Assembly (NCBI RefSeq): GCF_000152785.1
Contig: NZ_CH672414.1
Location: forward strand, 1,195,202 to 1,259,201
DNA from: Yoonia vestfoldensis SKA53
GTDB taxonomy: Bacteria > Pseudomonadota > Alphaproteobacteria > Rhodobacterales > Rhodobacteraceae
DNA length: 64,000 bases
Direction: 5' to 3'
Shown: positions 18,363 through 26,001 of the stretch, piece after piece
Layout: each line of letters begins with the position of its first letter
Numbering within the stretch: the first letter of the stretch is position 1
The notes under the pieces: model-generated
Seen by the model: the letters and a program-made list of their open reading frames with translations, nothing else
What the model was told of the DNA's origin: nothing
Database searches by the model: none
Position numbers and translations under genes: made by a program

Positions 18363-18381
18363 CGCTGACCTGCGGTCAGCG
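18363..18381 (-). other. stem-loop over the DUF5333 gene stop
   Basis: CGCTGACC-TGC-GGTCAGCG is a perfect 8-bp stem that includes the stop codon. On the transcribed strand a TTTTTT run follows only after about 15 nt, so it is not a textbook terminator; it may stabilise the upstream mRNA or pause transcription before nuoG. Confidence 0.45.
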
Positions 18382-18783
18382 CAGAAGCCAGCCAACGCGC
18401 GTATTTGCAGCGATTTGTGCTTGTCCAACGGCGCAATAGCTGGCGGGATCATCGGTTGCGGCCCCCAATGCGGCCAGCTGCGCCCTTGCGATATCTTCCA
18501 GCCGCCGCTTTTCGGCGCTGTCGTCGATATAGGCGTCGATCGCTGCCTGACTATAGCCCAGATCGCGGGCCGTTGCGCGCAGCGATTGCAGATAGGTCAG
18601 ACCCCGAAAGGTCCGCGCGCGAATGCTGTCGCATTTTTCTGCAATCTCGTAAGCCATGCCGACATAAATGATTCCGTCACGCACTGCCGGTTCATCGCGC
18701 AGCTGCGATTGCGCCGACAACGTCCCTGCCAGGCTGACCATCGCCAGCAGAATTACCATGATCGCGATTGTTGTTCTTGTCAT
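18376..18783 (-). CDS. DUF5333-like exported protein
   Basis: A 135-residue protein with a signal peptide (TIAIMVILLAMVSLAGTLSAQS) and a helical body with two conserved-looking cysteines (EIAEKCDSI and PASYCAVGQAQI). It resembles the Rhodobacteraceae family catalogued as DUF5333. The start at 18783 has GAGG at the right distance. The preceding lipoprotein gene encodes a similar layout ([11 protein letters not shown] near the start, [12 protein letters not shown] near the end, spacing nearly the same), so the two appear to be paralogs. Position inside the nuo operon suggests a periplasmic factor connected to complex I or its assembly; function unknown. Confidence 0.75.
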   Translation of the reverse strand: MTRTTIAIMVILLAMVSLAGTLSAQSQLRDEPAVRDGIIYVGMAYEIAEKCDSIRARTFRGLTYLQSLRATARDLGYSQAAIDAYIDDSAEKRRLEDIARAQLAALGAATDDPASYCAVGQAQIAANTRVGWLLR

Positions 18784-20901: not shown

Positions 20902-21471
20902 TTATGCGCTGGCGGCCAGTGTCTTGGCCTGCGCGACCCAGCCATCACGGCTGGCACGGCCTTTGAACCCCTGCAGATTGGCGTCCATCCACGCCAATTC
21001 CTCTGGTCCCCAAGACGCGATCTGGTCGAAATGAAAAATCCCCATGCCATGCAGGGTCTGTTCCAGCTTTGGGCCAACGCCACTCAGCTGGCGCAGGTCG
21101 TCAGGCTGGCCGCCACGCGCTGCAGACAGCATTACGGGCTTTGTACCAGCACCGGATGTCGCGGCAGATGCGGCGGGTGCGGCAGGCGCGGGTGCAGCTG
21201 CTGGTGCAGGTGCAGCTGCTGGTGCAGGTGCAGCTGCTGGTGCAGGTGCTGCTGCCGGTGCAGCCGCCTCGGGGGCCGCAACGCCATCATTGCGCGCCGG
21301 ACGCCAGCCCAATGCAAGCGCCAGACCCGCGACACCGGCCACGATGATGGCCACGAAAACCGCGCCAACCAGGCCAAGGTCATAAAGCACATAGGCCACA
21401 CCAAGTGCGACAACAAAGACAAGGCCCGCAATCGCGGCAATCCCCATCCAGATCGGTGCTGTGTTGTTCAT
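20902..21471 (-). CDS. membrane protein with Ala/Pro linker and C-terminal helix-hairpin-helix domain
   Basis: A 189-residue protein with three parts. Two N-terminal membrane helices (IWMGIAAIAGLVFVVALGVA; GAVFVAIIVAGVAGLALALG) are followed by an (AAPAPAAAP)n linker encoded by an 18-bp tandem repeat, and then by a compact domain (DLRQLSGVGPKLEQTLHGMG, then FDQIASWGPEELAWMDANL). The last is a helix-hairpin-helix of the type also found with NuoE and ribosomal-protein-like domains. The start at 21471 has GAGGAG upstream. It follows nuoE after a 171-bp spacer and precedes the DUF5337 gene. Membrane tether plus long linker suggests it reaches out to the peripheral arm; this is inference. Confidence 0.78.
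   Translation of the reverse strand: MNNTAPIWMGIAAIAGLVFVVALGVAYVLYDLGLVGAVFVAIIVAGVAGLALALGWRPARNDGVAAPEAAAPAAAPAPAAAPAPAAAPAPAAAPAPAAPAASAATSGAGTKPVMLSAARGGQPDDLRQLSGVGPKLEQTLHGMGIFHFDQIASWGPEELAWMDANLQGFKGRASRDGWVAQAKTLAASA
21191..21262. repeat. 18-bp tandem repeat encoding Ala/Pro linker
   Basis: The unit GGTGCAGCTGCTGGTGCA occurs three times exactly and a fourth time with three changes (21245-21262). It encodes the Ala/Pro repeat of the HHH protein in the opposite strand. In-frame unit length means copy-number change would only lengthen or shorten the linker. Confidence 0.85.
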
Positions 21472-21509
21472 CTTTTCAATTCTCCTCTCAGGGGGTTGCC
21501 CGTGCAATC

Positions 21510-22572: not shown

Positions 22573-22694
22573 CAATTCATCCCGGTCATCATGACAGCGC
22601 CAGTGATCGGCGCAAACAAAGCGGCGGAAACGCTCCCGCCAAGGTTCGTCCCACCCATTAGCACAAGCACGCTTGCGGGCAAGCCGATTGACAT
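22572..22694 (-). CDS. candidate 40-aa hydrophobic small protein
   Basis: An ATG-to-TGA frame that joins its neighbours base to base: its ATG shares a base with the lipoprotein stop (TGATG) and its TGA shares a base with the nuoE ATG (TGATG). The peptide begins [20 protein letters not shown] and continues as a hydrophobic, Gly/Ala-rich chain with one possible membrane segment. Codon third positions are less GC-rich than in the neighbours, so it may instead be untranslated spacer. Nothing about function can be said. Confidence 0.4.
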
Positions 22695-23023
22695 CACAGG
22701 CAGGCCCCTGTGGTGATACGGAACGACCGGCCATCTGACCCGATCTCGCCCCGGCCTTCGGCGCGCAATTCGGTCATGATGCGGGCCATGTCCTGCTGGG
22801 ACAGGGTCGCGCTGGCCAGCACGGTCTGCGTATTTGCGCTGGTCAGCTCGCACCCATTGGCGGTGACAGCAGCGATAAAGCGGTCCTTGGACGATCCGGG
22901 ATTGACCGGGGTCGGCAGTGTTTGCGGCGCAACCCTCGCACTCGGGTATGGCGCGGGCATCACCATCGGATAGGCGCAGGCCGACAGGGCGATAAAGGCG
23001 ATGAAAGGCAGCTGGCGGATCAT
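22694..23023 (-). CDS. small lipoprotein in nuo operon
   Basis: A 109-residue protein with signal peptide [18 protein letters not shown] (lipobox LSAC), a Pro-rich linker, and a C-terminal domain ([20 protein letters not shown], then [20 protein letters not shown]) ending in TTGACL with a second cysteine that may pair with the earlier one. The start ATG at 23023 is preferred to an in-frame TTG at 23038. It is similar in style to the other nuo-operon lipoproteins, but I see no clear homology to them. Function unknown. Confidence 0.7.
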
Positions 23024-23067
23024 GGTGTCATCTTTCAATTAACGGGTCGCGGCGGGCCATGCCTGCA

Positions 23068-23265
23068 TCATTCGGCAAGGACCACGCCATCACGACCGGC
23101 CACTTCGGTCAGCCCATAACTCAGCACGGCCACGGATAAAGCAATCCCCGCCACGCCGCCAAAAATGATACCGGCAACAGGCCGCCGAAACCAGCGCGAC
23201 ACGGCCGCCGACAGGAAAAACCCGACAGCCACCGCCGCGCCAAGCACGACCTGTTCCATCGTCAT
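23068..23265 (-). CDS. 65-aa membrane protein coupled to nuoD
   Basis: Starts with ATGA overlap on the nuoD stop. The peptide has two membrane segments ([18 protein letters not shown] and [20 protein letters not shown]) joined by a basic turn (RWFRRP), consistent with both ends outside the cytoplasm or both inside. It is too short for named families. The perfect coupling to nuoD and position among other small proteins make translation likely. Confidence 0.7.
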
Positions 23266-24500
23266 CTGTCGATTTCCCCGAACACCACGTCCAGCGTGCC
23301 GATGATCGCCGCCACATCGGCCAATTGATGGCCAGTGGCGATATGATCCATCGCCTGAAGATGCAGAAAGCCCGGCGCACGCAGTTTGGCGCGATACGGC
23401 TTGTTGGTGCCATCGGCCACCAGATAAACGCCGAATTCGCCCTTGGGGGCCTCGACCGCGGCGTAAACTTCGCCCGCGGGGACGTGAAAGCCTTCGGTGT
23501 ACAGCTTGAAATGATGGATCAAGGCTTCCATGGATGTTTTCATCTCGCCACGGCTGGGCGGGGTCATCTTGCCACGCGCCATCACATCGCCCTTTTCCAC
23601 CCGCAGCTTGGCGCAGGCCTGACGGATGATATGGGTGGATTGGCGCATTTCCTCCATCCGGCACAGGAACCGGTCGTAACAATCACCGTTCTTGCCGACC
23701 GGCACCTGAAATTCGAATTCATCGTAACATTCATAGGGCTGCGCACGGCGCAGATCCCATGCCAGCCCCGACCCGCGCACCATGACGCCGGAAAAGCCCC
23801 AATCATGGATATCCTGTTCTGTCACCACGCCGATATCGCAATTGCGCTGTTTGAAGATGCGGTTCTCGGTCAGCAGGCTGTCGATATCATCCAGCACCTT
23901 GGGGAAAGTCACGGCCCAAGCGTCGATATCCTCGATCAAGGCATCGGGCAGGTCCTGATGCACACCGCCGGGGCGGAAATAGGCAGCATGCAACCGCGCC
24001 CCGCAGGCGCGTTCGTAAAACACCATCAGCTTTTCGCGTTCCTCGAACCCCCACAGCGGCGGGGTCAGCGCACCCACGTCCATCGCCTGCGTGGTGACAT
24101 TCATCAAATGGTTCAGAATACGGCCAATTTCGGAATACAGCACGCGGATCAGGCTGGCGCGGCGCGGCACCACAGTGCCGGTCAGCTTTTCAATCGCCAG
24201 ACACCAGGCATGTTCCTGATTCATCGGCGACACATAATCCAGCCGGTCGAAATAAGGCAGGTTTTGCAGATAGGTCCGGCTTTCCATCAGCTTTTCGGTG
24301 CCACGGTGCAAAAGGCCGATATGCGGATCGCAACGTTCGACAATCTCGCCATCAAGCTCCAGCACCAGCCGCAACACGCCGTGCGCCGCAGGGTGCTGGG
24401 GGCCAAAGTTGATGTTGAAATTGCGGATCTTCTGTTCGCCGGTCAGCGCGTCGACTGACCCGTCGTCATAGGTGTTCACGCGGATATCGCCGTCCATCAT
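23262..24500 (-). CDS. nuoD: NADH-quinone oxidoreductase subunit D
   Basis: Quinone-site subunit related to hydrogenase large subunits, 412 residues. Signatures: [37 protein letters not shown], and the C-terminal GEIDR ending typical of the family. ATG at 24500 is preceded by AAGGA and overlaps the sulfotransferase stop (ATGA); an in-frame GTG-type start six codons upstream is less likely. Confidence 0.98.
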
Positions 24501-25393
24501 GCTGTCATCCTTACACAATTGTTCTGCCAGTTCGCTGGCAAGGGGCCGACGTTACGCGCGACCCAGTCATATTGTTCAAATAGTAGCTTTTGCGCAGGTG
24601 TGCGCAGCTTTTCAAGCATCGCCACCGGCCGGCCATCATGCACCGCCTGTGCGGGGACATCGACAGGCCCGATCCCCAGAAAGGCACAGACCCGCGCCAG
24701 ACCGTCCGCCGTCAGCAGCGTTTCGGCAAAAGCCACCAGCAGCCGGTCGGCAGGCACCACGCGGCGCAGCTTGCTGATCACGCCAGCATAATCACCGCGC
24801 GCGAGGATATGCGTCTCTTGCCCACGGTTCAACATCCGGTACAGGATATTATTTGCCTTTTTTTCGTAAATTTCGTGGCTTTGCCGCTGGCGATGCGCCT
24901 GCATCCGGATATGTGACCACAGCCGGTCTAACGGATCGCGGATCAGATAGATCACCTTGGTCAGGGGCGCTGCCGCAACCATCCGGTCCAGCAGCGCGTC
25001 AGACAAGGTGGCGTAATTGGGGGTCATATCGGCATAGATCCGCGCCACACCCCGCCCCTGTGTCAGCCATGCCAGATAGGCCGTATCATCATTGCGGTCA
25101 CCGGCGACAACATCCATCAACGCCGCCATATCCCCGATCCGCCGGTCAAGGTTGCGGATCTGCCAGCCGCGATCTGCGGCTTCGGCCAGTACTTTGGCGG
25201 CGCGCAATTCGTTCAGCCGCAAATCGAAAGCGGCCAGTTGCTTGTCACGCTCGGGGGTGGTGAATGTGTCCCAATAATGCGCCTCTTTCACTGCGGGCAG
25301 CGCGCAATCGGGATGATCGTGCAGCAAACGGTAAAACCACGACGTCCCCGCCTTGGTCGCACCGACGCAGTAAAGAACGGCAGGCTCGGTCAC
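24497..25393 (-). CDS. sulfotransferase family protein inserted between nuoC and nuoD
   Basis: A 298-residue cytosolic PAPS-dependent sulfotransferase. The 5'-phosphosulfate loop is [15 protein letters not shown] at 10-24 and the 3'-phosphate motif is [19 protein letters not shown] near 146-164. [18 protein letters not shown] stretch between them is typical of bacterial (Sulfotransfer_3-like) members. The acceptor is unknown; bacterial relatives act on glycans, lipids or proteins. The start overlaps the nuoC stop and the stop overlaps the nuoD start, each by four bases, so it is cotranslated with two essential complex I subunits. G+C and codon use look like the neighbours. This placement is not part of the standard nuo order. 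Confidence 0.9.
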
Positions 25394-26001
25394 TTGCCTT
25401 CGGCCTTTGCCTTGTCATCGCCGGGCAGGACGTATTTGGCCCCTTCCCATGGCGACATGAAATCGAACTGGCGGTATTCCTGCACAAGGCTGACCGGTTC
25501 ATAGACGACGCGTTTCTGCACCTCGTCATAGCGAACCTCAGTATAGCCGGTGGTCGGGAAATCCTTGCGCAACGGATGCCCGCGAAAGCCGTAATCGGTC
25601 AGGATGCGGCGCAGGTCGGGATGGCCGGTAAACAAGATGCCGAACATGTCGAAGACTTCACGCTCGAACCAATTGGCCGACGGATGCACCCCGATGATGG
25701 ATGGCATCATATCGTCGTCACGGATCTGGACCCGCACACGGATACGCTGGTTCTGATACATGCTCAGGAAATGATAGATCATGTCGAACCGCTTGGCGCG
25801 GCTCGGATAATCCACCGCCGTGATATCCACCAGCGAGGTGAACAGGCAATTCGCATCCGTTTTCAGGAATTCCACGAAACTGACCAATGACGACGGTGCG
25901 ACCGTCACGGTCAATTCGCCATGGGTGACATCCCAGGACTGAACGCAATCAATACGCTTGAGGTCCAGATGCGCGCCCAATTCTTGCAAGGCTTCGGTCA
26001 T
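25390..26001 (-). CDS. nuoC: NADH-quinone oxidoreductase subunit C
   Basis: Peripheral-arm subunit (30-kDa type), 203 residues, not fused to NuoD. The signature [20 protein letters not shown] followed by [20 protein letters not shown] is present. AAAGGAA lies upstream of the ATG. It lies 11 bp after nuoB. Confidence 0.97.

Follow-up and report, generated by a model that had tools for sequence, protein, structure and literature searches.

A sulfotransferase gene of patchy occurrence at the nuoC-nuoD junction of the complex I operon in Yoonia vestfoldensis and related Rhodobacteraceae

Inside the nuo operon of the window (the whole stretch of 64,000 nucleotides of Yoonia vestfoldensis SKA53 DNA analyzed here), an open reading frame at 24497-25393 on the minus strand starts with GTG and encodes a sulfotransferase of 298 amino acids, hereafter ST. 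The protein scores above the Pfam cut-offs for PF13469 (Sulfotransfer_3; 46.7 bits versus 27) and PF00685 (Sulfotransfer_1; 25.2 versus 22); an NCBIfam search returned no model at an E value of 0.01 or better. Both flanks are unambiguous, with nuoC upstream (25390-26001, minus strand; NF004733, 342 bits) and nuoD downstream (23262-24500, minus strand; NF004739, 616 bits), in agreement with the location given in an earlier note made on this DNA from the sequence alone. That note had also described ATGA overlaps with both neighbours. This holds for nuoD, whose start coincides with the ST stop codon at 24497-24500 (minus strand), provided that the first of two adjacent ATGs (24500-24498) is the start, as is inferred here; the mechanical call extends nuoD to a TTG at 24518. 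At the nuoC stop, on the other hand, the overlap reads GTGA (25390-25393, minus strand), owing to the GTG start of ST. The base composition of ST (GC 0.599, GC3 0.686) is similar to that of nuoB, nuoC, nuoD and nuoF (GC 0.559-0.605, GC3 0.682-0.739) and is as ordinary as had been stated.

Other genes in the window lie among the nuo genes as well. A DUF5333 protein (124.5 bits) is encoded at 18376-18783. Between nuoE and nuoF, positions 20902-21507 encode a protein that has an Ala/Pro-rich repeat tract and a helix-hairpin-helix match falling short of the Pfam cut-off, and a cluster of 30 ORFs from the nuoE-nuoF gap of other loci resembles it. The stretch from nuoD to nuoE holds two small ORFs, at 22694-23038 (114 amino acids, lipoprotein-like by eye) and 23068-23268 (66 amino acids, membrane-like by eye), neither of which gave a match in a Pfam scan; they have counterparts at the equivalent place in many loci of the Yoonia group. 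In Rhodobacter capsulatus and Paracoccus denitrificans, too, non-subunit genes (URFs) lie between nuo genes; ST resembles them in being an extra gene inside the operon, and we know of no sulfotransferase among those URFs.

Both sulfotransferase motifs that the earlier note had read in ST, of 10 and 11 residues, are present. The loop VGATKAGTS (residues 10-18; 25340-25366, minus strand), which from family knowledge we take to bind the 5'-phosphosulfate, carries K14 in 113 of 117 nuo-linked STs of at least 250 amino acids and R in the other four. RDPLDRLWS (residues 152-160; 24914-24940, minus strand), presumably the 3'-phosphate-binding motif of the family, has R152 and S160 in 117/117 of this set, and Glu37, the presumed catalytic base within KEAHYWD (residues 36-42; 25268-25288, minus strand), is equally invariant (117/117). 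Purifying selection is evident from dN/dS values of 0.067-0.176 in 10 close pairs, above those of nuoC in 10/10 pairs and of nuoD in 9/10. An AlphaFold2 model (pLDDT 89.8, pTM 0.86) begins straight at the P-loop strand (residues 5-9), and since this leaves no space for a signal peptide the protein is probably cytosolic. Taken together, the motifs suggest an active PAPS-dependent sulfotransferase.

The genome encodes a bifunctional ATP sulfurylase/APS kinase (1023 bits) which, by its predicted activities, can furnish PAPS to ST. An APS kinase is found in 56/56 genomes of the Yoonia/Loktanella genus group, ST present or absent, and thus lends no support to ST function. The type of CysH was considered as a sign that PAPS serves sulfotransfer only; this was dropped, the sole NCBIfam model above cut-off being phosphoadenylyl-sulfate reductase. 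The protein has CC and CxxC cysteines, and the APS-reductase model lies below cut-off. When the source genome was scanned with PF13469 and PF00685 at E 1e-3, each yielded a single gene, the nuo-located ST.

The predicted fold of ST was compared with known structures using VIA-align Z scores on the AlphaFold2 model, and Foldseek was also run. The closest structure is 3rnl of Alicyclobacillus acidocaldarius (Z 18.1 over 229 residues), likewise a Sulfotransfer_3 (PF13469) protein, which shares the PAPS loop, the overall fold and the Glu motif (KEAHYWD aligns with KEAHFF at 26.8 bits), but only 21-23% identity; we know of no acceptor for it. Heparan-sulfate 3-O- and N-sulfotransferases (3-OST and NDST) follow at Z 17.1-17.9 over 225-234 residues. 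These enzymes are eukaryotic and only 15-21% identical to ST, and the Glu at the KEAHYW position is shared in a very weak stretch of alignment (EPHFFD of 3-OST-3, 2.5 bits). Tyrosylprotein sulfotransferases (TPST) are a clear fold match at Z 12.4-12.9, but stand below 3-OST/NDST. Of the tyrosine and glycan sulfotransferases, which the earlier note had named as relatives that would support a function, those of the glycan (heparan-sulfate) type are closer to the ST fold as modelled. Fold resemblance alone does not determine the acceptor, as the non-glycan, polyketide-type sulfotransferases of CurM and olefin synthase score Z 13.8-13.9 and CurM is the second-best match of a sequence profile (E 2.3e-6), ahead of HS 3-OST-3 (E 5.6e-5). 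Judged by the model together with the contexts of unlinked relatives described below, a glycan is nevertheless the best bet.

Lower ranks are taken by the SULT enzymes (Z about 9-10.5; SULT and Stf types together about 9-11) and by the mycobacterial Stf9, Stf1 and Stf0 chains (Z 9.8-10.9; Stf3 is not among the rows listed). This bears on the idea that ST sulfates a respiration-linked small molecule of the membrane, for example a hydroxylated quinone or a lipid. Its seat in a respiratory operon would suit such a role, and bacterial sulfotransfer to a quinone has a precedent in mycobacterial sulfomenaquinone, made by the sulfotransferase Stf3. Given the low rank of the Stf chains, however, and with no small-molecule-modifying gene recognised beside ST among the part of the window's neighbouring ORFs that was scanned, we regard this role as improbable.

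Relatives of ST away from the nuo genes offer a second view of the acceptor. Three of these loci have polysaccharide-type neighbours by Pfam: an ABC transporter ATPase and a nucleotidyl transferase at L141, an ABC-2 transporter at L142, and a family 2 glycosyltransferase at L133; a Pfam scan of one neighbour each at L130 and L140 gave no match. These contexts are a partial sample, with the neighbours of L114, L132, L134, L137-L139 and further loci outside the annotated set. A search of plasmids with ST returned 17 records, all below 60% identity, and the contexts of four were inspected. Two of the four, from Tateyamaria omphalii and Leisingera thetidis, lie in polysaccharide clusters, and two do not, that of Ruegeria pomeroyi being beside fab genes and that of Dinoroseobacter shibae beside transposon and RTX-type genes. 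The cousins in polysaccharide clusters are matched by the same profile or protein query, and L141 and L142 are placed in the ST tree; they differ from the window ST in lying outside the nuo operon, in falling outside the main nuo-linked group (L141 and L142) or in being only 27-28% identical (the plasmid genes). The polysaccharide-export family PF02563 occurs in 55/56 genus-group genomes regardless of ST and so gives no support for a glycan role. One study counts PF13469 among the marker families by which it recognises sulfated-EPS production in mats (PMC9723792).

Some of the unlinked relatives have features of their own. The D. shibae plasmid gene (L262; NC_009956.1, pDSHI02) is shortened, its match spanning query residues 118-296 only, and adjoins the transposon and RTX-type calcium-binding genes. 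A close relative of ST at L140 (G389:C24; 335 bits), which scores highest among the unlinked matches of the family sample, lies away from nuo genes. At L132 (G060:C16) the match falls inside a 561-codon open frame, and the best plasmid match, in Sulfitobacter guttiformis, falls under a gene annotated as an alpha/beta hydrolase; from these two observations a hydrolase-sulfotransferase fusion in genes of the L132 type is possible.

Comparison of the nuoC-nuoD junction across Rhodobacteraceae, proposed in the earlier note, reveals conserved presence of ST. In named genome contigs, 41 ST loci (41-96% identical, the closest in a Yoonia MAG at 96%) were found in Yoonia, Loktanella, Marivivens, Paradonghicola, Limimaricola, Oceanicola granulosus, Rubellimicrobium, Sediminimonas and others. 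When neighbour order was scored on nuo genes and two small URFs only, other ORFs intervening in many loci, nuoC is upstream in 41/41 and nuoD is next downstream in 40/41, the exception (L071) being cut by the contig end. The gene is neither confined to this strain nor, in its close relatives, placed elsewhere, the two outcomes that had been named as speaking against a link to complex I. In the literature searched, which leaves most subscription journals outside, no paper joins sulfotransferase, nuoC and nuoD, and among the matches listed there is none on a sulfotransferase inside a nuo operon.

For a broader view, 295 genomes of the family group (which we take to be Rhodobacteraceae in the broad sense), about one per genus, were searched with a profile built from 34 ST relatives. 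At E 1e-3, 160 of them had a match. For 106 ST rows paired with the listed NuoD places, 55 were adjacent, 11 were not and 40 had no listed NuoD; most of the unclear matches were fetched for context typing, with G247, G337 and G124 left out. Counting matches near contig ends and weaker unfetched ones as unlinked, at least 82/295 genomes carry a nuo-linked ST, and among matches of at least 200 bits the linkage is nearly complete (72/75, the exceptions being G389, G142 and G264). The context of 148 distinct ST ORFs was nuoC>ST>nuoD in 107, a tandem pair in 8, nuoB>ST>nuoC in 2 (L129 and L136), cut in 1 and unlinked in 30; this set is enriched for nuo-linked loci by the choice of fetched places, and 72/75 and 82/295 are the fairer figures. 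The four tandem pairs lie between nuoC and nuoD (L055, L092, L212 and L218), with the second ST of L055 situated between nuoC and the first. Beyond the family, 29/240 genomes of a class sample match the profile, including the source genome and one more of the family group, and the short flanks of 14 new loci from this search (13 outside the family group) contain no nuo genes.

The tight coupling to both neighbours noted in the window is general on one side. Across the 107 nuoC>ST>nuoD loci, with gene ends taken from homology matches and hence in error by a few codons, the distance from ST to nuoD is at most 60 bp in 101/107. From nuoC to ST, in contrast, it is at most 60 bp in only 67/107 and exceeds 230 bp in 25/107.

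Within the Yoonia/Loktanella genus group (G000-G055; 56 genomes including the source), ST is present in 39/56 genomes, and there is none at the nuoC-nuoD junction in 16 of the 55 examined there (all except G054). In 14 of those 16 there is no space between nuoC and nuoD, which abut or overlap, and in two a gap of about 290-350 bp separates them; a genome-wide search found no ST relative in 15 of them and a weak one in G043 (E 1.2e-6). An ST of the window type (at least 62% identity) occurs in 33/56 genomes, always in the nuo slot, three having been assigned to named loci by contig position, and the 17 rows labelled window-type (among them L053, whose genus is unproven) form one supported clade. 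The remaining 6/39 carriers have a divergent ST, 37-43% identical, in each case downstream of nuoC, with a gene of the GFA family intervening in 4/6; 3/6 show nuoD on the downstream side, the other three loci being cut. Five of the six make up a separate clade (support 100), and the closest row outside it is at a path length of 1.57-1.73 (three rows shown). The sixth is identical to L067 and groups with alleles of Marivivens, Paradonghicola and Limimaricola. Three distinct ST lineages thus occupy one slot within one genus group. Since NuoC around the divergent STs is ordinary for the group (78-84% identical to that of the window, versus 80-87% in the sixteen genomes without ST), the sequences suggest either that ST was swapped in place or that ancient alleles were sorted.

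ST is an accessory gene, conserved across the family yet patchy. Its carriers in the genus group have larger genomes than the non-carriers (mean 3.84 Mb, n=39, versus 3.09 Mb, n=16; Mann-Whitney p 7.5e-6, a test that ignores kinship in a comparison where many non-carriers are incomplete drafts). On a tree of NuoC and NuoD (126 rows), itself weak with 7/123 branches starred, ST presence requires 20 changes compared with a shuffled mean of 33.5.

After removal of 17 Yoonia rows and 2 that were short, the 148 ORFs gave a tree of 129 STs, of which 100 are nuo-linked and 29 are not. Nuo-linkage changes 6 times on this tree, compared with 26.5 times in shuffles (0/500 as low), and 85 nuo-linked STs fall in a single group of 87 rows, whose support of 94 is below the star. 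A single clade of all 88 nuo-linked STs is nevertheless rejected (AU p 0.0013) in a set of 108 rows, from which 8 long-branch and 13 other rows had been removed. Given this rejection, the trees indicate that nuo-linkage is strongly clustered but of more than one history.

Over 100 of the 107 loci, ST distances correlate with those of NuoC (r 0.57) and NuoD (r 0.54), with 0/999 permutations as high. General vertical co-inheritance was rejected as an explanation, as the correlation is nearly gone in the 69 loci from L057 on (ST-NuoC 0.10 and ST-NuoD 0.11, versus 0.38 for NuoC-NuoD), where distances are partly saturated. Judged by these distances, co-inheritance is visible in close relatives only. 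In the same number of loci the mean distance of ST is 1.27, against 0.31 for NuoC and 0.15 for NuoD.

The earlier note had suggested selection for fixed stoichiometry with complex I. In its most specific form, ST would modify a tyrosine or other residue of a peripheral-arm subunit and stay in the operon for that reason. The long-standing synteny with nuoC and nuoD is in line with this, as is the fact that more than one sulfotransferase lineage is found in the nuo operon, including the two loci between nuoB and nuoC. A component of complex I should, however, be present wherever a lineage has the complex, and the 16/55 genus-group genomes lacking a junction ST have both nuoC and nuoD; in the wider sample of 295 family genomes, the majority yielded no nuo-linked ST. 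ST also diverges far faster than NuoC and NuoD, is replaced by distant sulfotransferases, and has a fold nearer to glycan than to tyrosine sulfotransferases. A scan for acceptor residues (Y, S, T, K and N against ST presence in NuoC and NuoD residues 14-118; 126 rows, 131 tests) found no tyrosine present in more than 90% of carriers and less than 70% of non-carriers. Its strongest signal, Asn at NuoC column 39 (residue 38; 15/87 with ST versus 27/39 without, Fisher p 2.5e-8), was set aside as an ST-linked site, with only 2 independent pairs on supported branches, and possibly reflects kinship. Fixed stoichiometry is poorly supported by these results, and we consider modification of complex I very unlikely. 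The patchy presence, the larger carrier genomes, the fast divergence and the divergent slot alleles, drawn from sequence comparison, argue against a part or dedicated modifier of complex I and favour a housekeeping operon that expresses a product varying between strains.

The alternative offered in the earlier note, that the operon serves as an expression site, agrees better with the data than stoichiometry does, as the nuoC-nuoD junction houses other cargo as well. Both nuoC and nuoD are visible in 39 family genomes without ST (from 40 fetched of 89 such places), and a gap of more than 230 bp separates them in 13/39, compared with 1/37 for nuoA-nuoB and 1/39 for nuoB-nuoC. GFA-family (PF04828) ORFs lie between nuoC and ST in 36 cases and between nuoC and nuoD in 2, in a count where loci L003-L031 and L032-L072 are in part the same places. 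A lumazine-binding-like and a fluoroacetyl-CoA-thioesterase-like protein, one example each having been scanned, are further cargo between nuoC and nuoD. These gaps and their contents suggest that in this family the complex I operon tolerates cargo at the junction, which would be a cargo slot. At one locus, L036, a GFA-like protein is encoded between nuoA and nuoB, so that GFA-type genes occupy more than one nuo junction.

A tolerated slot raises the possibility that ST is a pure passenger, a mobile gene kept by recombination through its nuoC and nuoD flanks, its position without meaning and its acceptor lineage-specific. The divergent alleles within one genus group, the scattered presence on the NuoC and NuoD tree, the GFA, lumazine-binding-like and thioesterase-like cargo and the larger genomes of carriers, with the reservations on kinship and drafts given above, would all be expected of a passenger. 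The purifying selection on ST and the invariance of E37, R152 and S160 would not, and sulfotransferases far exceed the other cargo. Such a passenger overlaps moreover with the reading that we prefer, differing mainly in denying a stable surface-glycan role; we think it unlikely.

The reading that we prefer, to which we give about an even chance of being right, is that ST is a glycan-type sulfotransferase of the cytosol, that its acceptor is a surface glycan varying from strain to strain, and that its gene occupies a cargo slot of the nuo operon. An active, PAPS-dependent Sulfotransfer_3 enzyme with a fold of the heparan-sulfate N-/3-O-type would most likely sulfate a sugar in the precursor of a surface polysaccharide or glycolipid, on the cytoplasmic side. 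Read-through of the complex I operon would give it steady expression tied to respiration. Over time the slot may have been filled, emptied and refilled by different sulfotransferases, a turnover that would follow from an acceptor on the cell surface that differs between strains.

The strong excess of sulfotransferases over other cargo is left unaccounted for by a strain-variable product and is the main reason for caution about this reading. A slot indifferent to its cargo should not show such a preference, so that a functional tie to complex I retains some probability. Conceivably, although we doubt it, the junction is a standing sulfotransferase slot, refilled because sulfation is tied to respiration, be it that a complex I subunit or a molecule of the quinone pool or inner membrane is sulfated, or that surface sulfation is matched to the energy gained from NADH.

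In either case ST offers a clean handle on bacterial sulfation: two models find a single gene in the source genome, its locus is known and a source of PAPS is present, so that deletion of one gene could reveal what such bacteria sulfate. The arrangement also occurs in G138 (L214), taken as Dinoroseobacter shibae DFL 12, a member of a genetically tractable species. That a respiratory operon has repeatedly housed sulfotransferases of different descent raises the question of whether the surface chemistry of these bacteria is wired to their energy metabolism.
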